NCBI GenBank assembly: GCA_021805865.1
Contig: JAJZDX010000017.1
Span: 1-64,000 of the forward strand
Reading direction: 5' to 3'
DNA: 64,000 bases
From: Pseudomonadota bacterium
GTDB taxonomy: Bacteria > Pseudomonadota > Gammaproteobacteria > Steroidobacterales > Steroidobacteraceae
A model generated the notes under the pieces. It worked only from the letters and a program-made list of their open reading frames with translations, was not told the DNA's origin and ran no database searches. The position numbers and the translations under genes were made by a program. Shown piece by piece: positions 45,727-64,000 of the stretch (position 1 is its first letter; every line of letters starts with the position of its first letter).

Positions 45727-45829
45727 GACGCCGCGGCGTTGCGCTGCGGCGGAGGGATTACGATTACCCCGCCCCTCCGGATTCGGCGGCAGCGGTGGGC
45801 GGGCTCAGCATGGGCATCCTGCCTCGGAT

Positions 45830-46648: not shown

Positions 46649-46686
46649 GAATCCCCCACGCGCCGGGGGAGGGCGCGGGGGGATTC
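46649..46686 (-). terminator. GC-rich hairpin after the second TonB receptor
   Basis: Arms GAATCCCCCACGCGCC and GGCGCGGGGGGATTC with one bulged base and a 7-nt loop, beginning 15 bp after the receptor stop. No T-run follows, so termination strength is uncertain. Confidence 0.5.
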
Positions 46687-46700
46687 ATCCCGGGGCGGTT

Positions 46701-49280: not shown

Positions 49281-49570
49281 GTTTGTTGCCTCTTCATGTG
49301 GGAGATGAGCGGGAAGTGCGGCAGGGAAAATTCCGCGGCGAGACTCGAGCCGACGGCCGGGCGTTGCGGCCCACGGAGCGGGGTGTTGGTGTTGGGCCGA
49401 GGCGGGATCGATGCGCTCCCGTCCGGCACGGTCGTGCCGTGAGGGCGAACCGCGCCGACATCCTGCCTCGGCGAGGCGGCACTGCCGTGGGTTCGTACCC
49501 GGCGACCAAGAGCATGGCGGTTCCCCCCGAAATACCGCAGATGAAACCGATGTCCCCTCCCGCTGGGAGA

Positions 49571-49602
49571 ATGACATCGATATCAAATGATATCGATGTC
49601 AT
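49571..49602. promoter_or_regulatory. Perfect tandem LacI-like operator upstream of the TonB receptor
   Basis: ATGACATCGATATCA and TGATATCGATGTCAT form a perfect 15-bp inverted repeat around AA. Read another way, they are two 14-bp CG-centred sites, TGACATCGATATCA and TGATATCGATGTCA, with centres 16 bp apart. It is nearly the same as the element at 43578-43610. It lies about 290 bp before the receptor ATG and 170 bp after the 3' end of typA, so it serves the receptor. Confidence 0.72.
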
Positions 49603-49769
49603 CGTAACATTGCAATACTTCCTGCGATTTGCGCCACAGCAAATTCACGCGGAAAGCCGGGTTCGCCGAATACTGTTGCTAAATTACAACAAAAATCAAG
49701 GCAGGCGATCGGGTGCTCAGCTCCTCAGGGCCGAAACGGGGGCGACAAAGCAGGGCCCGCCGTTGTGCT

Positions 49770-51605
49770 TCAGGCGGTGAGGGCCTGGGGATCCTGGTCC
49801 GTGTCGCGCTGCGCGCGGCGGCGCTCCTGGTCGGTGAGATGGCGCTTGCGGATGCGGATCGAGGCCGGCGTCACCTCGACGAGCTCGTCGTCCGCGATGA
49901 ACTCCACGGCGTATTCCAGCGTGAGCTCGATCGGCGGGGTGAGCAGGATGGCATCGTCCTTGCCGGCGGCGCGGATGTTGGTCAGCTTCTTGGTCTTGAT
50001 GGGGTTGACCACCAGATCGTTGTCGCGGCTGTGGATGCCGATGATCATCCCCTCGTAGAGCTTCTCCCCGGGACTCACGAACAGCCTGCCGCGCTCTTGC
50101 AGGTTGAACAGGGCGTACGCGACGGCTTCGCCTTGCTCATTGCTCACCAGCACGCCGTTGCGCCGCTCGGGTATCTCGCCCTTGACCGGAGCGAAGCCGT
50201 CGAAGATGTGGCTCATCAGGCCGGTGCCGCGGGTGAGGGTGAGGAACTCGCCCTGGAAGCCGATCAGGCCGCGCGCGGGAACTCGGTAATCCAGGCGCGC
50301 CCGGCCGTTGCCGTCGGCGGCCATGTCGGTGAGCTCGGCGCGGCGGCGGCCCAATGCCTCCATCACCGCGCCCTGGTGCGAGTCTTCGACGTCGACAGTG
50401 AGGGCCTCGTAGGGCTCCTGCACCTCGCCGCTCACCACCCGGGTGAGCACCTGCGGGCGGGAGACGGCGAGCTCATAGCCCTCGCGTCGCATGTTCTCGA
50501 TGAGAATGGTGAGGTGCAGCTCTCCGCGGCCGCAGACCCGGAACATGTCCGGAGAGTCCGTGTCCTCGACGCGCAGCGCCACGTTGCTTTGCAGTTCCCG
50601 CTGTAGTCGCTCGCGCAGCTGGCGGCTGGTCACGAACTTGCCTTCCCGGCCGGCGAACGGCGAGGTGTTGACCTGGAACTGCATGGCGAGCGTCGGCTCA
50701 TCGATCCGGATCGGCGGCAGGCCTTCGGCGCATTCGCTGTCGCAAACGGTCAGGCCGATATTCACTGCCTCGACGCCGGTGATGGCGACGATATCGCCGG
50801 CGCCCGCCTCCTCGGCCGGTTGGCGCTGCAGGCCGGTGAAGGTGAGCACCTGAGCGACCTTGGCAGATCCCCGGTCCTGCTCGCCGTAGCGCAGTGCCAC
50901 GGCCTGGCCCGGGCGGACCGAGCCGCGGCGAATGCGCCCGATGCCGATGCGGCCCACGTAGCTGTTGTAATCGAGCGTCGAGATCTGCAGCTGCAGCGGA
51001 CGGTCGCCTTCGGCGGCCGGCGGCGGCACGTGCTCGAGAATGGCCTCGAACAGCGCGGTCATGTCGGTCCCCGGTGTCTCGTGATCCTTGCCGGCCCAGC
51101 CCTGCAGCGCAGAGGCGTAGATCACCGGGAAGTCGAGCTGCTCGTCGCTGGCGCCGAGCTTGTCGAACAGCTCGAAGGTCTGGTCGATGACCCAGTCGGG
51201 GCGGGCGCCCGGACGGTCGACTTTGTTGACGACCACGATGGCCTTCAAGCCGAGCGAGAGCGCCTTGCGCGTGACGAAACGGGTCTGCGGCATGGGGCCC
51301 TCGACCGCATCGACCACCAGCAGCACCCCGTCGACCATCGAGAGCACGCGCTCGACTTCGCCGCCGAAGTCCGCGTGTCCCGGGGTATCGACGACGTTGA
51401 TGCGGGTGCCGCGGTACTCGATGGCGCAGTTCTTGGCGAGGATCGTGATGCCGCGCTCGCGCTCCAAGTCATTCGAGTCCATGATGCGCTCGGTGAGCTT
51501 CTCATGGGCGGCGAAGGTGCCGGATTGCTTGAGCAGGCAGTCGACCAGGGTGGTCTTGCCGTGATCGACGTGGGCAATGATGGCAATGTTGCGGATGGGC
51601 TTCAT
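49770..51605 (-). CDS. typA: Ribosome-associated GTPase TypA/BipA
   Basis: 611-residue translational GTPase. G-domain motifs are in place: AHVDHGKTTLVDCLL (G1), RERGITILAKN (G2), DTPGHADFGGEV (G3) and NKVDRPGARPDWV (G4). The EF-Tu-like domain 2, EF-G-like domains and the BipA-specific C-terminal domain follow, with GRGELHLTILIENMRREGYE and SPGEKLYEGMIIGIHSRDND. The length is standard. TypA aids ribosome assembly and growth at low temperature or under stress. It is a single-gene unit in conserved core context. Confidence 0.97.
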   Translation of the reverse strand: MKPIRNIAIIAHVDHGKTTLVDCLLKQSGTFAAHEKLTERIMDSNDLERERGITILAKNCAIEYRGTRINVVDTPGHADFGGEVERVLSMVDGVLLVVDAVEGPMPQTRFVTRKALSLGLKAIVVVNKVDRPGARPDWVIDQTFELFDKLGASDEQLDFPVIYASALQGWAGKDHETPGTDMTALFEAILEHVPPPAAEGDRPLQLQISTLDYNSYVGRIGIGRIRRGSVRPGQAVALRYGEQDRGSAKVAQVLTFTGLQRQPAEEAGAGDIVAITGVEAVNIGLTVCDSECAEGLPPIRIDEPTLAMQFQVNTSPFAGREGKFVTSRQLRERLQRELQSNVALRVEDTDSPDMFRVCGRGELHLTILIENMRREGYELAVSRPQVLTRVVSGEVQEPYEALTVDVEDSHQGAVMEALGRRRAELTDMAADGNGRARLDYRVPARGLIGFQGEFLTLTRGTGLMSHIFDGFAPVKGEIPERRNGVLVSNEQGEAVAYALFNLQERGRLFVSPGEKLYEGMIIGIHSRDNDLVVNPIKTKKLTNIRAAGKDDAILLTPPIELTLEYAVEFIADDELVEVTPASIRIRKRHLTDQERRRAQRDTDQDPQALTA

Positions 51606-51888
51606 GGGAGGCCGGTGGGGCTGGCGGTATTGCCGGGTGGCAAAGACTTCGAACTATAGCAGATTGATGTCCGGCCTGCTTTGGGGAATCCCCGCTCGGT
51701 CGGGCGCTCTGCGATCCTCCCCAGTGCGATGCCGATATCCAGCCTGGGCGGTGGCCTCGCAGGTGCGGCCGGTGGCAGCCGCGCCGGAGGCCGTCGCGAA
51801 CGCGAGGCGAGGGCGGTCGATGCGCTGAGGCGCCGCAGGCTCGACCTGGGCCTTGGAATCGCCGGCCGATGGCCCCACACTTCTTTTA

Positions 51889-53742
51889 ATGTCCATTGCC
51901 GCACGCGCCCGCCGCGAGGCGCTCTCTGCGCCTCCTTCCGAGCCGCTGACGCTGCGCGGATTCCTCGGTGTATTCCGCTACAGCCGCCGTGCCATCGAGC
52001 TCGTCTGGAGCACCAACCGGGCGCTCACCGTATGGTTTGCCCTGCTGACGCTCGTGGCCGGTGTGTTGCCGGCCTCGGTCCTCGGCATCGGCTCGCTGAT
52101 CGTCGATGGTGTCGTCGCCGCCATCCACAGCGCAGGCGCCGGCACCTCGCGCGTGATCGAGCTCGTCGTCATCGAGGGCGTGCTGGTCGCCTCGATCGCC
52201 GCCGCCCAACGCGGATTGACCCTGTCCCGCTCGCTGCTGCGCGTTCAGCTGGGGCAGCGCGTCAACGAGATGATCCTCGAGAAGGCGCTGACGCTCTCGC
52301 TCGGACAGTTCGAGGATTCGGAGTTCTACGACAAGCTTACCCGGGCCCGCCGCGAGGCCTCGAGCCGGCCGCTGAGTCTGGTCACCCGGACGTTCGGGCT
52401 GGCACAGAACGCCATCTCCCTGGTGAGCTTCGCCACGCTGCTGGCGCAATTCTCTCCCTGGGCGGTGCTCGTGCTGCTGCTCGCGGGTCTGCCGGCGTTC
52501 GTCGCCGAGGCCAAGTTCTCCGGCGATGCATTTCGGCTGTTCCGCTGGCGCTCGCCCGAGACGCGCATGCAGACCTATCTCGAGACGGTGCTCGCCCGCG
52601 AGGACTACGTCAAGGAGGTCAAGCTGTACGGGCTCGGGCCGAGGCTGCTCGACCGCTACCGCGGCATCTTCCACCGGCTGTATCGGGCCGATCGCGCGCT
52701 GACCGTGCGGCGCGACCTGTGGGGCTTCGCCCTCGGGTTGGTTGCTACATTGACTCTCTACGGAGCGTATGCCTGGATCGCCGTCAGCACCATCAGGCGG
52801 GTGATCACCCTCGGCGAGATGACGATGTACGTCGGGGCGTTCCGCCAGGGTCAAACCGCCGTCTCGGCGATGCTGTCGGCCGTCGGCGGCATGTACGAAG
52901 ACAACCTCTACCTCTCGACGCTGTACGAGTACCTGGAGACGCCGGTGCCCGCGCCATCCGGGGGCATGGTGCGCGGGCCGCACCCGGAGGATGGCATTCG
53001 CTTCGAGGATGTCAGCTTCATCTATCCGGGCGCGCGGACCGCCGCGCTCGAGCACGTCACCTTGCATCTGCCCCCCGGCACCAGCCTGGCGCTGGTCGGG
53101 GAGAACGGCTCCGGCAAGACGACGCTCATCAAGCTGTTGACACGGCTGTACGCGCCGACGAGCGGCAGGATCCTGCTCGATGGCCGCGACCTCGCCGACT
53201 GGGACGAGCAGGCGCTGCGCGGGCGGATCGGCGTGATCTTCCAGGACTTCGCCCGCTACCAGATGCCGGTCGGAGAGAACATCGGCGCGGGCGATGAGCG
53301 CTATTTCGAGGATGAGGCCCGCTGGCAGGAGGCGGCCCGCATGGGCCGCGCCGACAGCTTCATCGAGGCGCTGCCGGCGGGCTACCACACGCAGCTCGGC
53401 ACGTGGTTCCAGGACGGGCATGAGCTCTCCGGAGGACAATGGCAGAAGGTGGCCCTGTCGCGGGCTTTCATGCGCACGCGGGCGGATGTGTTGGTGCTGG
53501 ATGAGCCGACCGCCGCCATGGACGCGCAGGCGGAAGCCGAGGTGTTCGAGCGCTTCCGCCAGCTCGCCCGCGAGCGCATCACCATTCTCATCTCGCACCG
53601 CTTCTCCACGGTGCGCATGGCCGACCAGATCATGGTGCTCGACCATGGCCGCATCCTGGAGCGGGGGAGCCACGAGGAGCTCATGCGGCTCGATGGCCTC
53701 TACGCGCGTCTCTTCGCGCTGCAGGCGCGCGGGTATCGTTGA
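51889..53742 (+). CDS. ABC transporter, fused permease and ATPase (exporter type)
   Basis: 617-residue half-transporter. The N-terminal membrane domain (about 1-330) has six helices, and the C-terminal nucleotide-binding domain has Walker A GENGSGKTTL at about 404, the Q-loop in VIFQDFARYQMPVGENI, signature LSGGQWQKVALSRA near 515, Walker B VLVLDEPTAAMD near 535 and the H-loop ISHRFSTVRMAD. ATG 51889 is preferred to a TTG 12 codons upstream. It should act as a homodimer. It belongs to the MsbA-like/lipid or peptide exporter class; the substrate is unknown. The 220 bp after it contain nothing recognisable. Confidence 0.92.
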   Translation: MSIAARARREALSAPPSEPLTLRGFLGVFRYSRRAIELVWSTNRALTVWFALLTLVAGVLPASVLGIGSLIVDGVVAAIHSAGAGTSRVIELVVIEGVLVASIAAAQRGLTLSRSLLRVQLGQRVNEMILEKALTLSLGQFEDSEFYDKLTRARREASSRPLSLVTRTFGLAQNAISLVSFATLLAQFSPWAVLVLLLAGLPAFVAEAKFSGDAFRLFRWRSPETRMQTYLETVLAREDYVKEVKLYGLGPRLLDRYRGIFHRLYRADRALTVRRDLWGFALGLVATLTLYGAYAWIAVSTIRRVITLGEMTMYVGAFRQGQTAVSAMLSAVGGMYEDNLYLSTLYEYLETPVPAPSGGMVRGPHPEDGIRFEDVSFIYPGARTAALEHVTLHLPPGTSLALVGENGSGKTTLIKLLTRLYAPTSGRILLDGRDLADWDEQALRGRIGVIFQDFARYQMPVGENIGAGDERYFEDEARWQEAARMGRADSFIEALPAGYHTQLGTWFQDGHELSGGQWQKVALSRAFMRTRADVLVLDEPTAAMDAQAEAEVFERFRQLARERITILISHRFSTVRMADQIMVLDHGRILERGSHEELMRLDGLYARLFALQARGYR

Positions 53743-53962
53743 CCTTACCCTCGCGGAGCGACGGCAGATGCAGAGTGATCCCGATGCGCTCATGGCGGCG
53801 ATGATTGCGGGCTCCCGGCCCATGCCGGTCGAGCGGGGGCTCCCGCACGGGAGCGATGCGGCCTCGAGGCGGATGCGACACGGGTGACAGGCGAGCGGGA
53901 CGAGAGCTTCAAGCTGTTGAGGCGCGACAGCGGTCACGGACTTGAGTGTGTGCCGCAATCTC

Positions 53963-54286
53963 TCAACGCTCGAGCATCGGAAGCTTCTCTGGCGCACCGT
54001 CCCATTGTTTCGCATCCTCGGGCGCGGGAATCTTCTGCGCGAGGACGGGCCACTTCGGGGCGAGCTGCCTGTTGAGCTCAAGGAAGTGCTCCTGCCCCTT
54101 TGGCACCTCGTCCTCGGGGAATATCGCTTCGGCGGGACACTCCTGGACACACAGGGTGCAATCGATGCACTCGTCGGGGTCGATCACCAGCATGTTGGGA
54201 CCCGCGTGGAAACAGTCCACCGGGCACACTTCCACGCAGTCGGTGTACTTGCATTTGATGCAGTTTTCAGTGACGACGTGGGTCAC
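53963..54286 (-). CDS. fdxA: Seven-iron ferredoxin FdxA
   Basis: 107-residue ferredoxin of the Azotobacter FdI type, with one 3Fe-4S and one 4Fe-4S cluster. The ligands lie in [20 protein letters not shown] and [19 protein letters not shown]. The long C-terminal helical extension ending [17 protein letters not shown] is diagnostic of FdxA. It is a low-potential electron carrier, often induced under low oxygen or nitrosative stress. An FNR/DNR-type box lies 69 bp upstream of its start, at the right distance for activation. It is divergent from the Crp/Fnr-type regulator gene. Confidence 0.95.
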
Positions 54287-54354
54287 GGCTCACTCCTTGC
54301 CGCCTGCCGCGGCTCTCAGCGGGAAAACCTAGCGTTTGTGAGAGGTCGTGCGCC

Positions 54355-54368
54355 TTGATCAACGTCAA
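54355..54368. promoter_or_regulatory. FNR/DNR-type box upstream of fdxA
   Basis: TTGAT-CAAC-GTCAA with C/G flanks, one mismatch from a perfect dyad of the TTGAT-N4-ATCAA class. Centred 75 bp before the fdxA start. If centred at -41.5 it would place transcription start about 34 bp before the fdxA ATG, and a TAGGTT hexamer lies in the -10 position. It may also serve the divergent regulator gene. Confidence 0.65.
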
Positions 54369-54504
54369 GCTGTTCCCGCCGTACCGGCGGAGGAGAAGCC
54401 GTGGGCATCGGGTCGCTCGCTCTCGATAATGCGGGCTCGTGTGATAAAGTAGGTGAGAATCGTCTCTCATCGATGCCCCCCTGGACCGTCCGCTACGAGG
54501 CAGC

Positions 54505-55191
54505 ATGCAGGCAGACAGGGCGCTGGCCCTCGAGCTGAGCCACCATTACCTGTTCTCCGCATTGTCGGAGGCTCAGCAAGAGCGGCTGCTCGCGACCGCG
54601 GTATCGCGGCAGCTTTCCCCGGGTGAGCGCCTGTTCACCCACGGGGAACGCGCGGGACAGTTTTTCCTGGTGCGGCGCGGCTGCGTGAAGCTGTATCGTC
54701 TTTCGCCTGAGGGGGACGAGAAGATCATGCGGCTCATCCGGCCTTCCCAGACGTTTGCCGAAAGCATCCTGTTCATGGACGCGCCGCAATATCCGGTGCA
54801 TGGGGAGGGCGTGGAGGCCGCCGAGCTGATCGCTTTCGATCGCGAGACATTCCTTGCAATCCTGCGGGAGTCTTTCCCCACCTGCCTCGCGGTGATGGCG
54901 CAGATGACTCGGCGGATCCAGGCGCACTGGGATGAGATTGAGACGCTGGCTCTGCAGAACAGCCGCTACCGTGTGGTGCACTACCTGCTCGGGCTCCTGC
55001 CTCAGACCGCTCAAGGCCGGGTTACCGTGACACTTCCGGCGCGCAAGATGGTGATTGCGGCGCACGTGGCCGTCACGCCGGAGACGCTCTCCCGGACGCT
55101 GCGGGGCCTCAGCGACGAGGGCCTCATCGAGGGTGCGGGGGAGGAAGTTACGATTGTCGATGTGGAAAGGCTCCGTCGCCACATGCGCTGA
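54505..55191 (+). CDS. Crp/Fnr family regulator, Dnr-like
   Basis: 228-residue regulator. An N-terminal cyclic-nucleotide-binding-type beta-roll (about 20-130) contains SPGERLFTHGERAGQFFLVR and GCVKLYRLSPEGDEKIMRLI. After the long dimer helix comes the HTH with MVIAAHVAVTPETLSRTLRG, in which the TPETLSR helix fits TTGAc/t boxes. It lacks the N-terminal Cys cluster of FNR, so it more likely senses via heme or another cofactor, like Dnr, a nitric-oxide responder. It is surrounded by three matching palindromes. The next gene starts about 50 bp later with a box in between. Confidence 0.87.
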   Translation: MQADRALALELSHHYLFSALSEAQQERLLATAVSRQLSPGERLFTHGERAGQFFLVRRGCVKLYRLSPEGDEKIMRLIRPSQTFAESILFMDAPQYPVHGEGVEAAELIAFDRETFLAILRESFPTCLAVMAQMTRRIQAHWDEIETLALQNSRYRVVHYLLGLLPQTAQGRVTVTLPARKMVIAAHVAVTPETLSRTLRGLSDEGLIEGAGEEVTIVDVERLRRHMR

Positions 55192-55194
55192 CGC

Positions 55195-55208
55195 TTGACG
55201 GCCGTCAA
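55195..55208. promoter_or_regulatory. FNR/DNR-type box between the regulator and the membrane protein
   Basis: TTGAC-GGCC-GTCAA; with its flanks CTTGACGGCCGTCAAG is a perfect 16-bp palindrome starting 3 bp after the regulator stop. Its centre is 41-42 bp before the ATG of the membrane protein, so activation from the usual -41.5 position would give a leaderless or nearly leaderless transcript. Confidence 0.65.
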
Positions 55209-55242
55209 GGCGCAAAAGGAGGGTTGCGAGGACGCTTCGCCC

Positions 55243-56592
55243 ATGGCCGCGCTCAGCAATCGACTTTCGCGCTGGACCTTGCCGATGTTCGCCTGCGCAC
55301 TCGTGAACTTCCTGGTGGCCCAGGGATGGATGCTCGCCGGTATGACCTGGCCCGCACAGCCCGTCTCCACCGCCGGAACACTTGCCGCGGTGCATCTGCT
55401 GGTGATCGGCTGGCTATTGTTCCTGATGCTGGGGGCGCTCTTCCAGTTCGTTCCGGTCATCACGTCCCGCCCACTCGTGAGCCAGTCCCTGGCACTCGCG
55501 ACGCTCATCGCTCTCGAGAGCGGCCTCGCCGGCATGGTCGGCGGGTTCTTCGGCATCGGCGCCGGATACCCGGGGCTCGCGATGGCCCTGCCGGCCGGCG
55601 GTGCCGCCGTGTTTTTGGGGGTACTGATCGCGTGCTGGAACATTGGGGTACCGCTGCTTCGCTCGCGACCGTTGTCGCTCCCCGGGCGAATGGTACTCAC
55701 GGGATTGGCATTCCTGGTCCTGACCGTGACGCTCGGACTCTCGTTCGCCTTGGCCCTTGCGGCGCCGGCACTTGCGCCGTACCTGGCGCCGCTTCTTGCC
55801 GGTGTAGGCGATCACGCGCTCGCCGGTCTCGGTGGATGGTTCACGCTCACCGCCATGGCGGTGAGCTACAAGCTGCTGCCCATGTTCATGCTGGCTCCGG
55901 AGGAGCGCGGAATCGCGGGGAATTCCGTTCATGTCCTCGCGACAGCGGGGTTCGCTCTGGCCGTCGGCGCGGGTCTTGCGCGGGTGTGGAGTGCTGCCGA
56001 GCCCTTGCGGGTCGCAGAATCGTCGGGATACGCGACGGTCGCCATCGCCGTGGCCCTCTATCTGTGGGACATCGTCCGGATCTATCGCACGCGCAAGCGC
56101 CCCGTCATCGAAGCGCACAACCGGGCCGCCATTGCCGCCTTCGCCTTCCTGGGGCTTGGCTCGGCGCTCGCGATCGGTTTGCGGTTGACGGCTCATACCA
56201 GCGCCGGCGCACCGGTGATCGTGTTTCTCACCGTGTTCGGCTGGCTCGGTGGCCTCGGACTCACCCAGCTCTACAAGATCGTTCCCTTCCTCACATGGCT
56301 GTCCCGCTACGGCAGCAGCCTCGGGCGGGGGGGAGCCGTGCCGCGTGTCCAGGATCTGGTCCTCGAGCGACGCGGCTATCCGTGGTTTGCACTGTATTTC
56401 CTCGGCGTGCTGCTGGGCGCCGTTGCCGGCCTGCTCGGCAGCTCGCGCGGGTTTCGGGCATGCCTTGTGCTCGTGACGCTTGCGACCTTCGGTCTTGTCA
56501 TCGAGTACTGGCGCGCCTGGCGTGGTCACTACGCGCAGTTGCGCCACCACGAGCCCGCCAGATCCCCGCTCCTACCAACTCAGAAAGGCTGA
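55243..56592 (+). CDS. Polytopic membrane protein, heme-copper-oxidase-subunit-I/NnrS-like
   Basis: 449-residue protein with about 12 membrane helices. Two segments resemble the histidine-bearing helices of cytochrome-oxidase/nitric-oxide-reductase-like subunit I and NnrS-type proteins: TLAAVHLLVIGWLLFLMLGA with FQFVPV, and GDHALAGLGGWFTLTAMAVS with YKLLPMFMLAP. A further His is in EAHNRAAIAAFAFLG. Catalytic copper and heme ligands cannot all be matched, so enzymatic activity is unproven. ATG 55243 is chosen because upstream codons lie in a regulatory palindrome. It is the first gene of a unit with a DUF2249 protein (2-bp gap) and a DUF59 protein, and probably handles nitric oxide or electrons in the membrane. 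Confidence 0.7.
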   Translation: MAALSNRLSRWTLPMFACALVNFLVAQGWMLAGMTWPAQPVSTAGTLAAVHLLVIGWLLFLMLGALFQFVPVITSRPLVSQSLALATLIALESGLAGMVGGFFGIGAGYPGLAMALPAGGAAVFLGVLIACWNIGVPLLRSRPLSLPGRMVLTGLAFLVLTVTLGLSFALALAAPALAPYLAPLLAGVGDHALAGLGGWFTLTAMAVSYKLLPMFMLAPEERGIAGNSVHVLATAGFALAVGAGLARVWSAAEPLRVAESSGYATVAIAVALYLWDIVRIYRTRKRPVIEAHNRAAIAAFAFLGLGSALAIGLRLTAHTSAGAPVIVFLTVFGWLGGLGLTQLYKIVPFLTWLSRYGSSLGRGGAVPRVQDLVLERRGYPWFALYFLGVLLGAVAGLLGSSRGFRACLVLVTLATFGLVIEYWRAWRGHYAQLRHHEPARSPLLPTQKG

Positions 56593-56594
56593 CC

Positions 56595-57107
56595 ATGTCC
56601 GAGCCGCTGACACTTGATGTTCGCGAAGAGCTGCGCAACGGAGGGGAGCCGCTGCCGCGGATCCTTAAGGCCGTAGCGAGTCTCGCGCCGGGGCAAGCGC
56701 TGCGCCTGCTCGCCACCTTCGAGCCGCTGCCGCTCTACGCCGTGCTCGGTCGCAAGGGATTCGATCACGAAGCGATGTGCCATGACGGGAAAAACTGGGA
56801 GGTGCTGTTCTCGCCGCAGGCGCCGCGGCCGGAGCCCGCCTCGCCCGCCGCTCCGGTTTCCAAGGAGTCCTGCGCGGGCGGGTGGCCCAAGCCGAGTACG
56901 TACCTCGACAACCGTGGTCTGGAGCCGCCTGAGCCGATGATCCGGATCCTCGATGCGCTCGAGCACCTGGGGCCGGGAGAGGTCCTGGAGGCGCTCAACG
57001 AGCGCGATCCGGTCTTTCTGTATCCCGAGCTGCAGGCGCGGGGCGCCGCAATCCACACCGAGAAGGTGGGTGAGGGCGTGCGGCTTTTGATCCGGCGCGC
57101 GGGCTGA
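56595..57107 (+). CDS. Tandem DUF2249 protein
   Basis: 170 residues containing two DUF2249 modules. The first (about 5-75) reads LTLDVREELRNGGEPLPRIL, ALRLLATFEPLPLYAVLGRK and GKNWEVLFSP. The second (about 105-168) reads EPMIRILDALEHLGPGEVLE, then LNERDPVFLYPELQARG. A short linker contains a Cys (SCAGGWPKPS) and the first module another (AMCHDGKNW). DUF2249 resembles the small TusA/SirA-type fold and is frequent beside denitrification and nitrosative-stress genes, but its activity is unknown. The start lies 2 bp after the membrane-protein stop. Confidence 0.8.
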   Translation: MSEPLTLDVREELRNGGEPLPRILKAVASLAPGQALRLLATFEPLPLYAVLGRKGFDHEAMCHDGKNWEVLFSPQAPRPEPASPAAPVSKESCAGGWPKPSTYLDNRGLEPPEPMIRILDALEHLGPGEVLEALNERDPVFLYPELQARGAAIHTEKVGEGVRLLIRRAG

Positions 57108-57112
57108 TCGCG

Positions 57113-57430
57113 ATGGACACTGGCATCTCCCCGAACCGGGACTTCGTGCTCGAAGCGCTGCGCGAAGTGCTCGACCCAGAGCTCGGGTACAACATCGTCG
57201 ATCTCGGCCTGATTTATGAGTTGGAGGTGGACGCCGGCGTCGTCGAGATCACCATGACCATGACGACGCCGGGGTGTCCCGCTCAGGATTACATCATGTC
57301 AGGCGTCCATGAGCGCTGCAGAAGCCTTCCTGGCGTCAACGACGCGAAAATCCATCTCACGTTCCTGCCGGCGTGGTCGCCGCGCCTGATGACGCCTGTC
57401 GCCAAAGCACATTTCGACATTCAAGAATGA
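57113..57430 (+). CDS. DUF59/MIP18 family Fe-S assembly protein (SufT-like)
   Basis: 105-residue single-domain protein. The conserved pattern EALREVLDPELGYNIVDLGL is followed by EITMTMTTPGCPAQDYI, where the Cys of TTPGCP is the hallmark of the family. Members assist maturation of iron-sulfur proteins (SufT, PaaD-like). It lies 5 bp after the DUF2249 gene, and its last 10 bp overlap the end of the convergent DUF2249-domain gene. Its presence suggests the cluster makes or repairs a metal-sulfur protein, plausibly the Rieske protein or FdxA. Confidence 0.88.
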   Translation: MDTGISPNRDFVLEALREVLDPELGYNIVDLGLIYELEVDAGVVEITMTMTTPGCPAQDYIMSGVHERCRSLPGVNDAKIHLTFLPAWSPRLMTPVAKAHFDIQE

Positions 57431-57897
57431 GCCGCCGCGGTGCGGCCGATCTGCACCTGCCAGGTAGCCGGTCCCTGCTCGAGGTAATTCCAGGAAAATT
57501 CGCCCGTGTGCTCGGCTTCGAACTGGTAGTAGAGCGGTTTGGGATCGTGGTCGTTGACCAACACGAAGCTTTCACCGGGGTTGAGTTTGCCATAGGTCTC
57601 GAAGATCAGGCGGTGTCGGTCCATGGGGATGAGCTTGCGGACATCGAGGGTTTTGGGTTGTGACACGGGTATCTCCTCATCAGGTGTGCCATGTCGAGCA
57701 CGGGTAAGACTGTGTAACACGCCGTTGAAGCGTTCGGCTTCGCGTGGTTGAGAACGGCGCAGAGCGGACCATGCGGAAGCGGCGAGCGTGCACGCCGAGC
57801 GACGCTGCGCCTCTCCGGCCTCGCCGAGCTCAAGCAGGGCGCGCAAGAGTAGACGGTTGACCGCTGCAAGGACCTCGTCCTCGTCATTCGCGGTCAT
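57421..57897 (-). CDS. Helical N-terminal domain fused to DUF2249
   Basis: 158 residues. Residues 1-75 form a helical part: MTANDEDEVLAAVNRLLLRA, QRRSACTLAASAWSALRRSQ and EAERFNGVLHSLTR. Residues 78-158 are a DUF2249 module: SQPKTLDVRKLIPMDRHRLI, FVLVNDHDPKPLYYQFEAEH and SWNYLEQGPATWQVQIG. The two parts are in one uninterrupted frame. However, a GTG with GAGGAG upstream sits exactly at the domain junction (57666), so the DUF2249 part may also be made alone. The 5' end overlaps the Rieske gene by 14 bp. Function unknown. Confidence 0.7.
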   Translation of the reverse strand: MTANDEDEVLAAVNRLLLRALLELGEAGEAQRRSACTLAASAWSALRRSQPREAERFNGVLHSLTRARHGTPDEEIPVSQPKTLDVRKLIPMDRHRLIFETYGKLNPGESFVLVNDHDPKPLYYQFEAEHTGEFSWNYLEQGPATWQVQIGRTAAAHS

Positions 57898-58201
57898 CGC
57901 AAACCCCGATGATTCCGTCGCGGATGCGCACCGGGAAGGTATGCACGCCAGCATACGCGGGCGCCTCGAGGGCCTTCCCGGTGCGAATGGAGAACTTGGC
58001 CATGTGCCATGGGCAGACCGCTCGGTCCCCCTCCAGCCAACCGCCGGAGAGATCCCTGCCGAGGTGGGTGCACAGGTCCTCGAGGGCAAAGTGCCCGCCG
58101 TCCGGATTGCAGGCGGCCGCATCGGCGCCGTTGAGCGCAACCACCGTGCAGCGGCGATTGGCGATCTGCCCGGCCCGAGCGGCTTTGGGCCACTGCGACA
58201 T
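57884..58201 (-). CDS. Small Rieske (2Fe-2S) protein
   Basis: 105-residue single-domain Rieske ferredoxin. Cluster ligands are Cys44 and His46 in LCTHLG and Cys63 and His66 in CPWHMAKF. There is no membrane anchor, so it is a soluble carrier, like those feeding oxygenases or nitrite reductase (NirD-like). Start ATG 58201 with GAGG upstream. The gene is first in a minus-strand unit with the DUF2249 fusion and lies 58 bp downstream of a perfect FNR/DNR-type box, the spacing expected for activation. Confidence 0.87.
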   Translation of the reverse strand: MSQWPKAARAGQIANRRCTVVALNGADAAACNPDGGHFALEDLCTHLGRDLSGGWLEGDRAVCPWHMAKFSIRTGKALEAPAYAGVHTFPVRIRDGIIGVCDDRE

Positions 58202-58259
58202 CTGTCATGTCCTCACGCTATTCCGGGGACACGGTACGGCGACCGGAGGCGCTGACGCC

Positions 58260-58273
58260 TTGACGATCGTCAA
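58260..58273. promoter_or_regulatory. FNR/DNR-type box upstream of the Rieske gene
   Basis: TTGAC-GATC-GTCAA, a perfect 14-bp palindrome. Placed at -41.5 it predicts a transcript starting about 24 bp before the Rieske ATG. It matches the box before the membrane protein in both half-sites. Confidence 0.7.
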
Positions 58274-58411
58274 GTGGCATCATGAGCGCCGGAGTGGCGG
58301 TGGGAATCCGAGGGGTCCCCGCCACGCGGAGTCAGGAGGGACCTGCCCCGCGGTCACGCTGTCGAAGCGCCTCCGACAGCCCCCCCCCGGTGCGCCACCC
58401 GATCGGTCATT

Positions 58412-58680
58412 TCAGGCCTCCGATGCCGGGATGGTGAGCTGAAAGGGCCAGGCGTCGAGGGTGATCAGTCGGTAAAGAGTACCGGCGTCGATCGAGATCT
58501 GATCGGCGCAATGCCTCAGCCGGCCGGGCAGGCGGGCGCGGATGCGCAGGCTCGCCGCTTTCCCATATTCCAACCTCTCCGGCGCTCGCCCGGTCGCCGA
58601 GCAACCGCTCATGCTGCCGGCGGTAGCCGCTGATGAGCTCCTCGCGGGATATTCACGGGGGCACCACGTTGGTATCGGGC
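58412..58680 (-). pseudogene. Unrecognised decayed gene remnant
   Basis: The minus strand shows SREELISGYRRQHERLLGDR in one frame and PERLEYGKAASLRIRARLPG followed by QISIDAGTLYRLITLDAWPF and QLTIPASEA-stop in another. The pieces look like one protein end broken by a frameshift near 58590. I cannot name the family. It is next to an aminotransferase remnant. Confidence 0.3.
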
Positions 58681-58819
58681 CTGGTGGGATCGCCGGCGCC
58701 TTCCCGCTCGCGCAGCCGCCGCGCGCCGGCCCCATGGCAAACCCTATGGGGGAAGCGGCGTCTCGTGCGCGGCGGCGTCTGCGGTGTAGCAGGTGATCCG
58801 CGACGAAAGTCTCATGGAC

Positions 58820-59127
58820 AACCCGCATCGAACGGACGAGCATCTGAAAAGGACGCCCCTTGCGCTCGGGAATCGCCGCCCTGCGATCCGCGATGTGCGG
58901 GGCGCGGGGCTGCGCATCGGCGTCGAGGCCGGCGCCCATCCGGCGAGCGGCCTGGGCGCGTCCGCCGAGACCCGGCGGGTGGTGAATGCCATGCGCCGGC
59001 ACGGTGTGCTGCTCGGGGCCGGGCCGCGACGGCAACGGGCTCAAGAGTCGTCCGCCGCTCGTTTTCGAGGCGCGGCACGCGGATCTGCCGGCGCAGGAGC
59101 TCGAGCGGACGCCGACGGAGGGCTGAC
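58820..59127 (+). pseudogene. C-terminal remnant of a class III aminotransferase
   Basis: One frame reads LALGNRRPAIRDVRGAGLRI, GVEAGAHPASGLGASAETRR and VVNAMRRHGVLLGAG. After a one-base shift near 59025 the next frame continues GRDGNGLKSRPPLVFEARHA and DLPAQELERTPTEG-stop. These match the last roughly 100 residues of pyridoxal-phosphate-dependent omega/4-aminobutyrate-type aminotransferases (GAGLMIGVEL ... LKIRPPLVF). The catalytic body with the Lys is absent. It lies just upstream of the acyl-CoA gene cluster and may once have belonged to the same amine pathway. Confidence 0.6.
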
Positions 59128-59219
59128 TCGATGCGGTGCGCTTCGCGAGGCTTTGGTGCAATCGTGCCGGCCGTCCGGGCCGGGCGCCGGTCCATTGGCG
59201 TCGGTCGGGTCTTTCGGGG

Positions 59220-59238
59220 TATTATCACAGTGATTATA
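59220..59238. promoter_or_regulatory. AT-rich palindrome upstream of the acyl-CoA dehydrogenase
   Basis: TATTATCACAGTGATTATA, a 19-bp dyad with a perfect core ATCACAGTGAT, ending 38 bp before the start codon. It has the same outer form (TATTAT-N7-ATxATA) as the element at 63542-63560, which suggests one regulator, possibly TetR-type. Confidence 0.55.
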
Positions 59239-59276
59239 AAATACGCCGGTCCGGCGGCTGCCGGGGGGATGAACCG

Positions 59277-60440
59277 ATGGAATTCGCGCTCAACGAAGAA
59301 CAGCAGCTCATCGTCAAGACGACCGGCGAGTTCGTGCGCCGGGAGCTCTACCCGCACGAGGCCGAGGTCGAGGAGTCCGGTCATCTGCGCGAGCCGCTGC
59401 GGCGTGAGCTCAAGGCCAAAGCCATCGACGCCGGGCTGTATGCCGCCAACATGCCGGCCGAGGTCGGCGGCGGCGGCCTCGATCCGGTGAGCTGGATGCT
59501 CTACGAGAAGGAGCTCGGGCGCACGAGCTATGCGCTGCACTACTCGTGCGTCGCGCGTCCTTCGAACATCCTGCTCGCCTGCGAGGGAGAGCAGCGCGAG
59601 CGCTACCTGCTGCCGGCGGTGCGTGGCGAGCGCACCGAGTGCCTCGCCATGACCGAGCCGGGCGCGGGCTCGGACCTGCGCGGCATGAAGACGACGGCGG
59701 TCCTAAAGGGCGGGGATCTGGTGTTGAACGGCACGAAGCACTTCATCAGCCACGCTGACCACGCCGACTTCGTCATCCTGTTCGCCGCCTCGGGGCAGGA
59801 GAGCACGCCGCGCGGCAGCCGCCGCCTCATCACCGCGCTGCTCGTCGATATGGGCACGCCCGGGTTCGAGGTCCTGCCCGGCTACCGCAACGTCTCGCAC
59901 AGAGGCTATACCAACAGCATCCTGAAATTCACCGATTGCCGGGTGCCGAAGTCGGCGGTGCTCGGGGAGCTGCACAAGGGATTCGATGTCGCCAACACCT
60001 GGCTCGGCGCGACCCGGCTGCAGGTGGCGGCCAACTGCCTGGGGCGTGCGGAGCGTGCGCTCGAGCACGCCAAGCAATGGGCGGTGGACCGCGTGCAGTT
60101 CGGCCAGAGCATCGGCAAATTCCAGGGCGTGGCGTTCAAGCTCGCCGACATGGCGGTCGAGCTGCGAGCCGCGGAGCTGCTGACGCTCGAGGCGGCCTGG
60201 AAGCTCGGCCAGGGCACGGCAACGGATCTCGATCTGTCGGTCGCCAAGCTCAAGGCCACCGAGATGCTCGCCATGGTGGCCGACGAGGCGCTGCAGATCC
60301 ATGGCGGCATGGGCCTGATGAGCGAGCTGCCGCTCGAGCGCATCTGGCGCGACGCGCGCATCGAGCGCATCTGGGACGGCACCAGCGAGGTGCAGCGGCA
60401 CATCATCTCGAGGGCGCTGTTGCGCCCTCTCGGGGGTTGA
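59277..60440 (+). CDS. Acyl-CoA dehydrogenase
   Basis: 387-residue FAD flavoprotein that oxidises an acyl-CoA to the 2-enoyl-CoA. Domain order is normal: N-terminal helices, beta domain with ECLAMTEPGAGSDLRGMKTT and NGTKHFISHADHADFVILFA, and the C-terminal bundle with RVQFGQSIGKFQGVAFKLAD and QIHGGMGLMSELPLERIWRD. At the position of the MCAD catalytic Glu (YEGT) the sequence reads IWDGTSE, so Asp replaces Glu, or the base lies elsewhere as in isovaleryl-CoA-type enzymes. ATG 59277 follows GGGGGGATG and starts MEFALNEEQQLIV. It is convergent with the hydratase/synthetase operon of the same pathway. Confidence 0.92.
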   Translation: MEFALNEEQQLIVKTTGEFVRRELYPHEAEVEESGHLREPLRRELKAKAIDAGLYAANMPAEVGGGGLDPVSWMLYEKELGRTSYALHYSCVARPSNILLACEGEQRERYLLPAVRGERTECLAMTEPGAGSDLRGMKTTAVLKGGDLVLNGTKHFISHADHADFVILFAASGQESTPRGSRRLITALLVDMGTPGFEVLPGYRNVSHRGYTNSILKFTDCRVPKSAVLGELHKGFDVANTWLGATRLQVAANCLGRAERALEHAKQWAVDRVQFGQSIGKFQGVAFKLADMAVELRAAELLTLEAAWKLGQGTATDLDLSVAKLKATEMLAMVADEALQIHGGMGLMSELPLERIWRDARIERIWDGTSEVQRHIISRALLRPLGG

Positions 60441-60637
60441 CCGCGGCCTTGTATCGCGGGCACGGCGTCCCGCGTAAGCCACGCTTTTTGCGCGCCGCCG
60501 CGCCGGACACGGCGCCCGCCGCCGGGTGCTTCCTGACGCATCAGTCATCCATCGCGTGCGGGCGAGCCCGCGGCGTGAGGCGCAGGGGCGACACAGGCAC
60601 AGGAACGTGCCCGCCGCCGCAGGCGGCTTCAAATCAG

Positions 60638-61429
60638 TCAGCGACCCTTCCAGGCCGGCTTGCGCTTCTCGGCGAACGCCCGGGCTCCCTCCCTGAGGTC
60701 CTCGGAGCGAATGACCCGTTGAACGGCCTCCAGGCTGTCGTGCAGCTCGAATGCCTGGTGCTCCGGGATCATCTCGGTGTGGCGCAGGAGCTGTTTGATC
60801 GCCGGGAACAGCAGAGGTGGGCCGTCGGCGAGCTGGTGGGCGATCTCACGCGCCTTGGCGAGCGCCTCGCCGCGCGCCACCACATGATTGGCGAGCCCCC
60901 AGTGCTTGGCTTCGGCGGCATCCATCCACCGGCCCGTCATCAGGAACTCGACCGCGACGTGATAAGGAATCCGTCGTCGCAGCTTGATCGTGCCGGCGTC
61001 CGCCAGGACGCCAACGTTGATCTCCGGCAGCGCGAAGCGGGCGTGCTCTTCCATCACGATGATGTCGCAGCCGAGGGCGATCTCGAAGCCGCCGCCGCAG
61101 GCGATGCCGTTGATCGCCGCGATGACGGGCTTGTCGAGATTGCGCGGATAGTTGAGGCCGCCGAATCCGCCGCTCCCCCAGTCCTCATCGGAGCGCTCCC
61201 CGTCCGCCGCGGCCTTGAGGTCCCAGCCGGGGCAGAAGAACCGGTCGCCGGCGCCGGTGACGATCGCGATGCGCAGCGCGGGGTCGTCGCGAAAGGCGCC
61301 GAATACCTCGTTCAGCCGCCGGCTGGCGGCGAGGTTGATCGCGTTCGCCTTGGGCCGGTCGATCCATACTTCGATGAGCGCACCATCCGTGACAGTGCGG
61401 ATCCCGTCTCTCTCGCTGATGTCGGACAT
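60638..61429 (-). CDS. Enoyl-CoA hydratase family, CaiD-like
   Basis: 263-residue crotonase-fold enzyme. Close in pattern to carnitinyl-CoA dehydratase: VWIDRPKANAINLAASRRLN, FRDDPALRIAIVTGAGDRFF, CPGWDLKAAADGE, NLDKPVIAAINGIACGGGFE, then FALPEINVGVLADAGTIKLR, ending AFAEKRKPAWKGR. The two catalytic Glu positions of hydratases are present (GGGFEIA and LPEINVG). Typical reaction: addition of water to crotonobetainyl-CoA or a similar 2-enoyl-CoA. The start lies 1 bp after the synthetase stop, so they form one operon. Confidence 0.85.
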   Translation of the reverse strand: MSDISERDGIRTVTDGALIEVWIDRPKANAINLAASRRLNEVFGAFRDDPALRIAIVTGAGDRFFCPGWDLKAAADGERSDEDWGSGGFGGLNYPRNLDKPVIAAINGIACGGGFEIALGCDIIVMEEHARFALPEINVGVLADAGTIKLRRRIPYHVAVEFLMTGRWMDAAEAKHWGLANHVVARGEALAKAREIAHQLADGPPLLFPAIKQLLRHTEMIPEHQAFELHDSLEAVQRVIRSEDLREGARAFAEKRKPAWKGR

Positions 61430-61430
61430 G

Positions 61431-63518
61431 TCAGTTTTCCTCGATGAGGCGGATCAATGCATCCACCGCGACGGCGCCGCGGCCGGCCGGGCGCACGATG
61501 ACCGGATTGAGATCGAGCTCGATCAAGCGATCGCGGGTGTCCCGAGCGTAGCGCGCGCACCCGAGGGCGGTCTGCACCAGCGCCGGGATGTCCCCTGGCG
61601 GGCCGCCGCGAAAGCCGCCGAGGAGCTTTGCCACGGCGAGTCGGCCGATCGCGCGCTCGATGTCCGCGGCCGTGAAGGGCGGCAGCAGAATCACGGTGTC
61701 TTTGAGCAGCTCCGTGAGGACGCCGCCCGCCCCGAGCACGAGCAGCTGGCCGAACTGGGCGTCGGTCTTGATGCCGATCAGGATCTCGGCGACTGCGTCG
61801 GTGACCATTTGCTCGACGAGCAGCTGGTCGGACAGGCGCGACAATCGGGCGGCCGCGGTATCGGCATCGGTGGGCGTACGCACGTTGAGAACCACGCCGC
61901 CGACATCCGACTTGTGCTCGAGCCCCGGTCCCGCGACCTTGATGACGACCGGGAAGCCGATGTCGGCCGCGGCATCGGCCGCGTCCGCGGGAGCGACGAG
62001 CCGCGACGCCGGGATCGGCACCCCGCAGGCCGCGAGCGCCGCCTTGCCCTGGTATTCGGTCAGTGTGCGCGCCCGCGGCTCACCGGCGGGGGCATGCGCC
62101 GGTGTATCGGCGGGCCCGGGCTTGACCAGTTCCACCCGCCCCCCGCGTGTCCAGGCCGCCCCGATTGCCGCTGCGAGATCGAGTGCCTCGAGCGCTTCGC
62201 GCTGACCTTGAAGCGGCGCGATCCCCGCGGCGAGGCAGCGGACGCGGACTTGCGCGGGGAGGGACTCCGGCAGCGAGCTGACGAGCGCGGTGCGCGCCCG
62301 CGTTTCTTTCGAGGCCGCCTCGAACTCCTCGATCACCGCGAGGTAGCTTGCCGCGTCCGCCTCCTGCTGCGGCGGACAGTCGATGAGCAGGCCCACCGCG
62401 TCGTATCCGGCGCTCTGCACGATCGAGAAAAGCGATCGCAGCCGCGGCCGGTCGAACCAGATGTGAGTGTGGAAATCGAACGGATTGGAGAGGGTGACGC
62501 GATCCGTCAGCAATGTGCCCAACTCCCCGGCCGGCTGCGAGGGAAGGGGCGGGAAGCGCAGCTGAAGTCCGCGGGCCGTGTCCGCGGCCATCGCGGTATC
62601 GCCGCCCGATGCGCCCATGAGCAACAGCCGGTGTCCGGGCAGAGGGCCCCCGGCATGCAGCACTTTCAGGGTTTCGCACAGCGTGGCAAGGGTGTCGCAG
62701 CGGGCGATGCCGATCTGCCGGCAGAACGCATCGAAGGCGGCGTCCGAGCCGGCGAGCGAGCCGGTATGACTGTGCACGGTGCGCGAGGCGGCCTCGGTGC
62801 GGCCGGTCTTGACCAGGGCAAGCGGCATGCCGGCGCGCCTCGCCTGGTCGATGGCCCGGGCGAAGCGCTCGGCATCCTTGATGCCCTCCACGTACAGGCC
62901 GAACGCCGTGACGCGCTCGTCCTGCGCGAGCGCTTCGATCAGATCCTCCACGGCGATGCGTTCCTGATTGCCTACCGTGAGTACGTAGCCGATCGGCAGC
63001 GAGCGGCGGTTGAACAGCAGATCGAGCGCGATCGTACCGCTCTGGCAGATGAGCGCCACGCCGCGCTGCGGCGGGACGCCGACGATCTGGTCCGGCCAAA
63101 GCGCCGCCCGATCGAAGAAATTGATGAAGCCGTAACAGTTGGGGCCGAGATACGGCAGTGCGCCGGCCGCGCCGGCGAGCTCGCCGGCGAGACGCCGGCC
63201 CTCCTCGGTGCCGGTCTCCGAGAATCCCGAAGCGAAACAGACGAATCCGCCGGCGCGGCGCCGCGCGAGCGCCGCCGTGATGGCGGGCGCTTCGCGCGCC
63301 GGGGCCGCAATGAAGGTCGCATCGGGAATCCCCGGCAACTCCTCGATCGAGCGGTAGTAGCACTGCTCGGCGCTCGATGGGCGGCTCGGGTGAACGCGCC
63401 ACACCTCACCGCGATAGCCGATGGCACGGCACGCCGCGGCGGCCGCATCCGCCCAGGCCCCGCCGCAGAGCGCGACGGTTCGCGGCGCCAGGAGGCGCTC
63501 CATCGCGCCGTCGATCAT
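61431..63518 (-). CDS. ADP-forming acyl-CoA synthetase (fused alpha/beta)
   Basis: 695-residue enzyme that activates a carboxylic acid to its CoA thioester with ATP, giving ADP and phosphate. The alpha part (about 1-450) has a CoA-binding Rossmann domain, YLGPNCYGFINF, ALICQSGTIALDLLF and the phosphohistidine loop TVHSHTGSLAGSDAAF. The beta part (about 475-695) is an ATP-grasp domain with LTEYQGKAALAACGVPIPAS, GFPVVIKVAGPGLEHKSDVG and ELDLNPVIVRPAGRGAVAVD. ATG 63518 has GGGAG upstream; a GTG five codons earlier is less likely. The gene is divergent from the aldehyde dehydrogenase and shares its AT-rich operator region. Its acid substrate may be the product of that enzyme. Confidence 0.92.
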   Translation of the reverse strand: MIDGAMERLLAPRTVALCGGAWADAAAAACRAIGYRGEVWRVHPSRPSSAEQCYYRSIEELPGIPDATFIAAPAREAPAITAALARRRAGGFVCFASGFSETGTEEGRRLAGELAGAAGALPYLGPNCYGFINFFDRAALWPDQIVGVPPQRGVALICQSGTIALDLLFNRRSLPIGYVLTVGNQERIAVEDLIEALAQDERVTAFGLYVEGIKDAERFARAIDQARRAGMPLALVKTGRTEAASRTVHSHTGSLAGSDAAFDAFCRQIGIARCDTLATLCETLKVLHAGGPLPGHRLLLMGASGGDTAMAADTARGLQLRFPPLPSQPAGELGTLLTDRVTLSNPFDFHTHIWFDRPRLRSLFSIVQSAGYDAVGLLIDCPPQQEADAASYLAVIEEFEAASKETRARTALVSSLPESLPAQVRVRCLAAGIAPLQGQREALEALDLAAAIGAAWTRGGRVELVKPGPADTPAHAPAGEPRARTLTEYQGKAALAACGVPIPASRLVAPADAADAAADIGFPVVIKVAGPGLEHKSDVGGVVLNVRTPTDADTAAARLSRLSDQLLVEQMVTDAVAEILIGIKTDAQFGQLLVLGAGGVLTELLKDTVILLPPFTAADIERAIGRLAVAKLLGGFRGGPPGDIPALVQTALGCARYARDTRDRLIELDLNPVIVRPAGRGAVAVDALIRLIEEN

Positions 63519-63541
63519 GATATGAGCTCCCACCCTTTAAA

Positions 63542-63560
63542 TATTATTTCGATAATAATA
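63542..63560. promoter_or_regulatory. AT-rich palindrome between the synthetase and aldehyde dehydrogenase
   Basis: TATTATT-TCGAT-AATAATA, perfect 7-bp arms, in the 86-bp region between two divergent genes. It has the same outer form as the palindrome in front of the acyl-CoA dehydrogenase. Probable shared repressor operator. Confidence 0.6.
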
Positions 63561-63604
63561 CGATACGACGCCAAAGCGCGGCAAGATCCGCGGGGGAGGC
63601 TGAC

Positions 63605-64000
63605 ATGCACGAGCGGTTGCTGATCGACGGGCGTCTGGTCGCGGGCGAGGGCGCCGAGGAGACCATCCTCGATCCAGCAAGCGGCGGGCGGCTCGCAGCC
63701 ATAGCCGGCGCGAGCGTCGGGCAGGTGAATGCGGCGGTCATGGCGGCCGAGCGGGCATTCGAGACCTGGCGGGCCGTGGCGCCGAAGGAGCGGGCGGCGC
63801 GCCTGCTCGCCATCGCCGCGCATATCGAGAGCGAGGCGCGGGAGTATGCGCAGCTCGAGTCCCGCAACACCGGCAAGCCCCTTGCGGCCGTGCTGGCCGA
63901 TGAGATTCCCGCCATCGCGGACGTCTTTCGCTTCTTCGCCGGCGTCTGCCGCAGCCCGCACGGCATCGCCGCGGGGGAATACCAGCCGGGGTGCACGAGC
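63605..64000 (+). CDS. Aldehyde dehydrogenase, PatD-like, cut by window end
   Basis: First 132 residues of an NAD(P)-dependent aldehyde dehydrogenase; the frame is open at the window edge. The start MHERLLIDGRLVAGEGAEET, the helix AAVMAAERAFETWRAVAPKE and especially AQLESRNTGKPLAAVLADEI with PAIADVFRFFAGVCRSPHGI and AAGEYQPGCTS match gamma-aminobutyraldehyde/4-trimethylaminobutyraldehyde dehydrogenases. The active-site Cys lies beyond the window. Start ATG 63605 has GGGGGAGG upstream. The divergent neighbour is an acyl-CoA synthetase, which fits an aldehyde-to-acid-to-CoA-ester pathway. Confidence 0.88.
   Translation, partial: MHERLLIDGRLVAGEGAEETILDPASGGRLAAIAGASVGQVNAAVMAAERAFETWRAVAPKERAARLLAIAAHIESEAREYAQLESRNTGKPLAAVLADEIPAIADVFRFFAGVCRSPHGIAAGEYQPGCTS

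Follow-up and report, generated by a model that had tools for sequence, protein, structure and literature searches.

A Clustered, Predicted Dnr-Type Regulon for Nitric Oxide Response in a Steroidobacteraceae Genome

Gene Organization of the Locus

The window, that is, the whole 64,000-nucleotide stretch of DNA analyzed here (positions 1 to 64,000 of contig JAJZDX010000017.1, assembly GCA_021805865.1, family Steroidobacteraceae), carries at 53963–58273 a gene for a Dnr-like regulator, three palindromic boxes and the three transcription units that they precede, read here as a putative regulon responding to nitric oxide (NO). The fdxA gene (53963–54286, minus strand), putative target of the first box, encodes a 7Fe-type ferredoxin that scored 160.6 bits against NCBIfam FdxA_Protbact (cut-off 135 bits), and its start and distance to the box are conserved in relatives. 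The dnr-like gene for a CRP/FNR regulator (54505–55191, plus strand; PF00027, PF13545) is followed on the same strand by the membrane-protein operon. This operon comprises a 449-residue membrane protein with 12 long helices, a predicted heme-copper-oxidase-like fold and invariant H51 and H191 (55243–56592), a protein with two DUF2249 domains (56595–57107; PF10006) and a DUF59 protein of the iron-sulfur assembly type (57113–57430; Pfam PF01883). On the minus strand, the Rieske unit starts with a Rieske ferredoxin (57884–58201; PF00355), putative target of the third box, and continues with a 158-residue open reading frame (57421–57897) that has an N-terminal helical part and a C-terminal DUF2249 domain.

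Box 1 (TTGATCAACGTCAA, 54355–54368) lies between fdxA and dnr, box 2 (TTGACGGCCGTCAA, 55195–55208) begins 3 nt past the dnr stop codon, and box 3 (TTGACGATCGTCAA, 58260–58273) is located upstream of the Rieske unit; no strand is assigned to them. These palindromes had been described in a first-pass annotation made from the DNA letters, and their letters and positions match exactly, as does the arrangement described there, with the boxes ahead of the three units and the regulator gene between boxes 1 and 2. The regulon had also been called compact. The three units are indeed clustered, but membership is not confined to the window, since a hemerythrin gene on contig C75 of the same genome shares the promoter described below.

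Frequency and Conservation of the Boxes

In the 64-kb window, the search allowing up to one mismatch gave four matches versus 2.29 expected, and chance is not excluded at this scale. The whole genome of the window (4,683,097 bases scanned) holds 14 sites for the core pattern TTGAYNNNNRTCAA (TTGAYN4RTCAA) versus three for the control, the same pattern read backwards, and at this scale the excess settles the matter. Three of the 14 sites are the boxes described here, and the probability that three of 14 random sites fall within 3.9 kb was 7.6e-4 by simulation. The extended motif TTGAYNNNNRTCAAGGCG, with a GGCG tail, is found in this genome only at the three boxes (control, 0).

Flanking bases and spacings were tabulated for 30 promoters (11 membrane-protein, 9 fdxA, 8 Rieske and 2 hemerythrin). 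The loci L215 and L217 were added because they bear boxes, and among the Rieske promoters that of L042 precedes a broken Rieske gene and that of L046 one split between two frames. Five boxes were kept outside the table (L218 fdxA, L052 Rieske, the far L052 box, L215 box 7911 and L218 box 4603), as were three membrane-protein promoters of genus g7. A GG follows the box in 30/30 and a C precedes it in 27/30 tabulated promoters, and only one of the other 11 core sites of the window's genome (in L013) has C..G flanks.

Over 21 genomes, the extended motif occurs at 40 sites. The 12 genomes that have an intact Dnr ortholog account for 31 of these (2.6 each), and the nine that lack it for the other nine (1.0 each), five of which are in G145 and two in G119. 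The GGCG tail was considered as a mark of Dnr only and rejected because G145, G054, G066 and G119 carry such sites while lacking an intact Dnr ortholog and because G091 has Dnr and no such site. The tail marks this cluster in its own genome and is not proof of Dnr. In G145, three extended boxes stand within 14 kb of contig C210 (L207), beside genes with no obvious link to NO.

The membrane protein was searched for in 150 genomes of the same family and was present in 21, the window's own included; nine of these are among the 14 same-genus genomes listed. From 18 of the other 20 genomes (G029 and G039 were left out), 19 stretches were fetched and read. A perfect box precedes the membrane-protein gene in 9/9 same-genus loci, counting the window, and in 3/3 loci of genus g7. 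In L051, the membrane-protein gene and a DUF2249 gene diverge from either side of a perfect box, and in L056 such a box stands about 800 bp upstream. The membrane-protein gene of G139 (L052:6412-7705) is split between two frames behind an intact box, by gene decay or assembly error.

Promoter Geometry and Predicted Leaders

A TAnnnT hexamer starts 24 nt past the box in 9/9 tabulated fdxA promoters and in 8/8 tabulated Rieske promoters, with a background of 0.0024 per position. The L218 fdxA and L052 Rieske promoters have TACACT at 23 nt, off by one, and the far L052 box, L215 box 7911 and L218 box 4603 have TAnnnT at neither 23 nor 24 nt. In the window, the predicted −10 hexamers are TAGGTT for fdxA (54326–54331, minus strand; predicted start near 54319–54320) and TACCGT for the Rieske unit (58231–58236, minus strand; predicted start near 58224–58225). 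This fixed spacing fits class II activation from a site near −41.5 and makes a leader of 34 nt for fdxA and one of 24 nt for the Rieske unit plausible. The same lengths had been proposed by the first-pass annotation; its arithmetic is right, and the conserved −10 is at the required place, give or take one base. The argument holds for these two units and had been left unapplied to box 2, where it predicts a leaderless message.

The distance between the center of box 2 and the A of the membrane-protein ATG (55243) is 41.5 nt, which gives a predicted start at 55243 and a leader of 0 nt. The candidate −10, GACGCT (55231–55236, plus strand), is a weak match to the consensus. Box end and ATG are separated by 34 nt in 9/9 same-genus loci and also in L217 (41 nt in L215), so that the ATG stands at box end +35 in 10/11 tabulated loci. 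GACGCT occupies box end +23 to +28 in 10/11 loci, with GAGGCT in L042. The three genus-g7 promoters have CATGAT at 22 or 23 nt and an ATG gap of 37–39 nt. Since the RLSRW sequence just past the ATG is conserved, and L043 and L044 have an in-frame stop between box and ATG, position 55243 is considered the right start.

The hemerythrin gene on C75 (PF01814; L161:8031-8567, contig ~130030-130566) has an ortholog in G119 (L212). In both, the box comes directly after the stop of a Rieske-like gene (in C75, the second such gene of the genome), TAC[GT]CT is located at +23 and the ATG at +35, and no well-spaced ribosome site was seen by eye in either unit. The C75 gene, with TACGCT as its −10, is very probably a fourth target on this promoter evidence. 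A second hemerythrin-domain gene (L162:6597-7132, C77) has TTGATTTTTATCAA upstream, without C..GG flanks. The membrane-protein and hemerythrin units would thus be leaderless, or else the box acts otherwise at these genes; the leaderless version is mildly favored.

A fixed spacing between box 1 and dnr was also considered. Candidate −10 hexamers of dnr start 47–93 nt off in 10/12 loci, and L217 and L218 have no candidate in that range, so no rule could be given. The distance from box 1 to the candidate dnr −10 (window 54355–54505) varies widely between loci.

Identity of the Regulator and a Second Reader of the Boxes

The best match of the regulator in the PDB is Pseudomonas aeruginosa DNR (3dkw, E 4.7e-49), and the next entries, not named DNR, follow at 1.8e-24. 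In a tree of 21 rows it falls in a clade with DNR (support 99/98), apart from the FNR of its own genome and from the regulators that lie near alpha-proteobacterial copies; long branches occur elsewhere in the tree. As had been noted from the DNA letters, it lacks the N-terminal cysteines of FNR: Cys is found only at positions 60 and 127, so there is no N-terminal iron-sulfur cluster motif. His occupies DNR position 187, as in 3dkw, and is kept in 12/15 orthologs. This residue is presumed to be the DNR heme ligand, for which the literature search turned up no paper. The recognition helix, TPETLSR, is of the FNR type. Grouping with DNR, absence of the cysteine cluster and an FNR-type helix paired with CTTGATnnnnATCAAG-like sites all agree with a Dnr protein, and the cluster expected of FNR is missing. 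The consensus CTTGATnnnnATCAAG was derived for DNR in a comparative study of 2005, and the box motif equals it with Y/R at the inner positions, according to the available text of that study (PMC1274295).

Searching the same genome with the regulator gave two other relatives. The one on C53 has a CRP-like helix, as judged by eye. The one at C62:123508 is a true FNR, with a C-x2-C-x5-C cluster, a central Cys and the helix GLTLETVSRAL. Its gene adjoins one for an SCP2 protein (UbiT-like), with a UbiD gene near; the locus (L059:7410-12147) contains ubiT-like and ubiV-like genes, names which are presumed here, and two boxes, TTGACCCGTGTCAA and TTGATCCCCGTCAA, each also conserved in G119 (L160). Two proteins can thus be expected to recognize TTGAY-N4-RTCAA. 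Dual input by Dnr and FNR is likely, since this FNR has a similar helix and G119 keeps its boxes with a decayed dnr. The Dnr-type identity proposed at first is supported by the DNR clade, the lack of a cysteine cluster and His187, and NO as the signal by the NO-related neighbors; FNR may use the boxes as well.

Nitric Oxide Context

In G111, G018, G102 and G069, a qNor-like gene and nnrS stand beside fdxA-dnr, and in G111 the families PF22085 (qNor) and PF05940 (NnrS) were confirmed. In G127, G133, G091 and at another locus of G111, nnrS is found a short way from dnr, and dnr has a box next to it; the nnrS of G091 is in two pieces. Since qNor and NnrS genes adjoin fdxA-dnr or dnr in relatives, NO is supported as the signal. 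A wider survey of neighbors within 5 kb covered the best 80 of 446 membrane-protein loci, and the DUF2249x2 protein was near in 77/80 and DUF59 in 74/80. In the same best 80, NnrS matches were found in 17 and NorB-type matches in nine, some of them weak. Reading by eye, the Rhodanobacter copy (L255) is near an Rrf2-type regulator resembling NsrR, and the Bradyrhizobium copy (L251) is near UbiD and ubiTUV-like genes.

The genome of the window was also searched for denitrification genes; with an assembly completeness of 98.75%, a gene may have escaped these searches. A COX1-family search found no NorB-type NO reductase: its two matches score as oxidases do (538 and 502 bits), and nothing turned up that resembled the qNor genes of relatives, which reached 176–189 bits here. 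No NirS was found in the genome search. No intact NirK was found, the best match being a short stretch with an internal stop. This copper nitrite reductase-like stretch (L208:3436-3684, C81) is 37% identical over 83 amino acids to a G080 protein and may be a remnant or another cupredoxin. Neither NarG nor NapA was found, since none of eight molybdopterin enzymes passed the nitrate-reductase cut-off; one formate dehydrogenase and one NuoG were over cut-off. One NnrS is encoded on C78, a contig with no exact box. The control of nir, nor or nos genes expected of a Dnr regulon was not seen in this genome, in searches that covered NorB, NirS and NirK. At 45001–64000 of the window, the search for a qNor or nnrS remnant gave only a weak match (E 0.27). 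In the absence of NorB, NirS, NarG/NapA and intact NirK from these searches, the cluster looks like NO defense rather than denitrification.

The Membrane Protein

No Pfam or NCBIfam match was obtained for the membrane protein. An AlphaFold2 model built with 17 sequences (pLDDT 86.8) has 12 long helices, and its best PDB matches by Foldseek were NorB (3o0r_B, E 2.2e-6, TM 0.66) and CcoN (3mk7, E 4.3e-6). The 12-helix fold of heme-copper subunit I is thus present in the predicted model. At the sequence level, none of 17 members matched PF00115, and the only histidines invariant in 80 sequences are H51, in the second long helix, and H191, in the sixth. These two fall short of the set for two hemes plus Cu or FeB, presumably the full ligand set of NorB and heme-copper oxidases. 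Identity with NnrS was rejected, given no PF05940 match and a probability of 0.7% for the hhalign comparison with an NnrS alignment. Sequence homology to NnrS or qNor was likewise not seen by hhalign with shallow alignments, and a PDB sequence search was empty. The protein is therefore like heme-copper proteins in its predicted fold and does not resemble them by sequence family or histidine set.

Discussion

The best overall reading of these data, held here to be probable, is a Dnr-type, NO-responsive regulon. A heme-based NO sensor encoded at 54505–55191 would bind CTTGAYN4RTCAAGG boxes near −41.5 as a class II activator and switch on fdxA, the operon for the membrane protein, DUF2249x2 and DUF59 proteins and the Rieske-DUF2249 unit. 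The fdxA and Rieske transcripts would have short leaders, and the membrane-protein operon and the hemerythrin gene would be transcribed from the ATG itself. The products may form an NO-defense kit, made up of a heme-copper-fold membrane protein, proteins that supply or repair Fe-S clusters, a di-iron protein and small electron carriers. The FNR of the same genome is probably able to read the same boxes, which would tie the kit to low oxygen.

Several observations weigh against this reading. A perfect box is missing from the distant loci L053, L054, L055, L057, L058 and L060. In G119 (96% complete), the boxes of the membrane-protein, Rieske and hemerythrin genes persist, yet no more than a decayed end of dnr was found there, and G127 (L042:1899-2300) has an intact Rieske box and −10 ahead of a Rieske gene broken after its first codons. 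The extended motif does not follow the regulator strictly, with five sites in G145 despite no close Dnr ortholog and none in G091 despite Dnr. Position 187 is Gln in the orthologs L049, L050 and L218. Furthermore, the genome encodes an FNR with a recognition helix of the same kind, and box 2 is at −41.5 only with a leaderless message and a weak −10.

Alternative explanations were weighed against these data. Chance matching of the three boxes would agree with the one-mismatch count in the window, which is not rarer than chance; it is practically out of the question given the genome counts versus control, the clustering and the fixed spacing to the −10, and is already refuted by the footprint kept at its position in relatives. 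A more substantial alternative is that the oxygen sensor FNR of C62 is the main reader of the boxes, with Dnr minor or redundant and the regulon answering to low oxygen. That FNR is present, its own locus has two boxes found also in G119, and the available text of PMC12403760 says that Anr and Dnr sites overlap in P. aeruginosa. Since G119 keeps three target boxes and the FNR locus with a decayed dnr, either FNR input or recent loss of dnr is indicated there. On the other hand, dnr is itself part of the cluster, and its orthologs occur together with nnrS and qNor. The boxes here also have C..GG flanks, which the other core sites approach only in L013 (C..G; the hemerythrin box lacks the C). 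In addition, G028, G014 and G066, with no close Dnr ortholog, have no box by their membrane-protein orthologs, the genomes being sorted by Dnr only. FNR as the main reader is considered quite improbable, while FNR cross-talk on a Dnr regulon is likely.

For box 2 and the hemerythrin box, the sites could instead belong to a repressor or to an unused promoter, the membrane-protein genes being read through from dnr. This would explain that box 2 begins 3 nt past the dnr stop, that −41.5 leaves no leader and that GACGCT is a weak −10. Against it, the ATG gap is constant in the same-genus loci and GACGCT is kept in nearly all tabulated loci, and at the equivalent position the hemerythrin gene carries a better −10 (TACGCT, TACTCT). 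Moreover, in G127 and G133 the intact dnr is elsewhere, yet the box still precedes the membrane-protein gene. Read-through is thus regarded as a serious but unlikely alternative to the leaderless start of a Dnr-driven operon.

The kind of control proposed is known; what is unusual is that denitrification genes were not found, that targets are predicted to be leaderless and that an unnamed heme-copper-fold protein is among them. A Dnr regulon without its known denitrification genes points to NO defense as a role of its own. The leaderless transcripts are a sharp, testable prediction. The promoter model of box, GG, a gap of 22–23 nt and TAnnnT may help to find further targets. The conserved block of membrane protein, DUF2249 and DUF59 occurs in many proteobacteria, with several copies beside NO-related genes. 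No description of it was found in the open literature searched, most subscription journals being outside it. It is suggested, tentatively and with considerable doubt, that the block is a widespread NO-handling system with a pared-down, two-His heme-copper-fold protein, here on a Dnr-driven leaderless message, in a regulon that persists without NO reductase and could stay active under conditions that impair ordinary initiation of translation.

Compared with known systems, the membrane protein is alike to NorB and CcoN in predicted fold, without sequence similarity and with two invariant His only. In DrpA/DrpB of Thermus thermophilus, a DUF2249 protein is likewise under a nitrate-respiration regulator; that system goes with a nar operon, according to the available text (PMC6282519), whereas neither NarG nor NapA was found here. 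The closest parallel is the DNR regulon of Pseudomonas and beta-proteobacteria (PMC1274295; for Anr-Dnr, PMC12403760), which, as far as the available text of these papers goes, shares the regulator subfamily, the motif and an FNR/Anr in the genome, and is partnered by NnrS and NO reductase, as in the relatives here. The present regulon differs in its genome, with no NorB-type reductase, NirS, intact NirK or NarG/NapA found, and in its targets, which are fdxA, the Rieske unit, hemerythrin and the membrane protein-DUF2249-DUF59 operon, two of them predicted to be leaderless.

COG4309 is presumably the DUF2249 family. Genes of COG4309 are linked to NO reductase genes in the available text of PMC1274295, and DUF2249 genes are induced in denitrifying Haloferax mediterranei in that of PMC11218638; there as here, DUF2249 is associated with the metabolism of nitrogen oxides and with regulators of it. 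The system described here differs from those in that DUF2249, DUF59 and the heme-copper-fold membrane protein form one fixed block, preceded by Dnr-type boxes.

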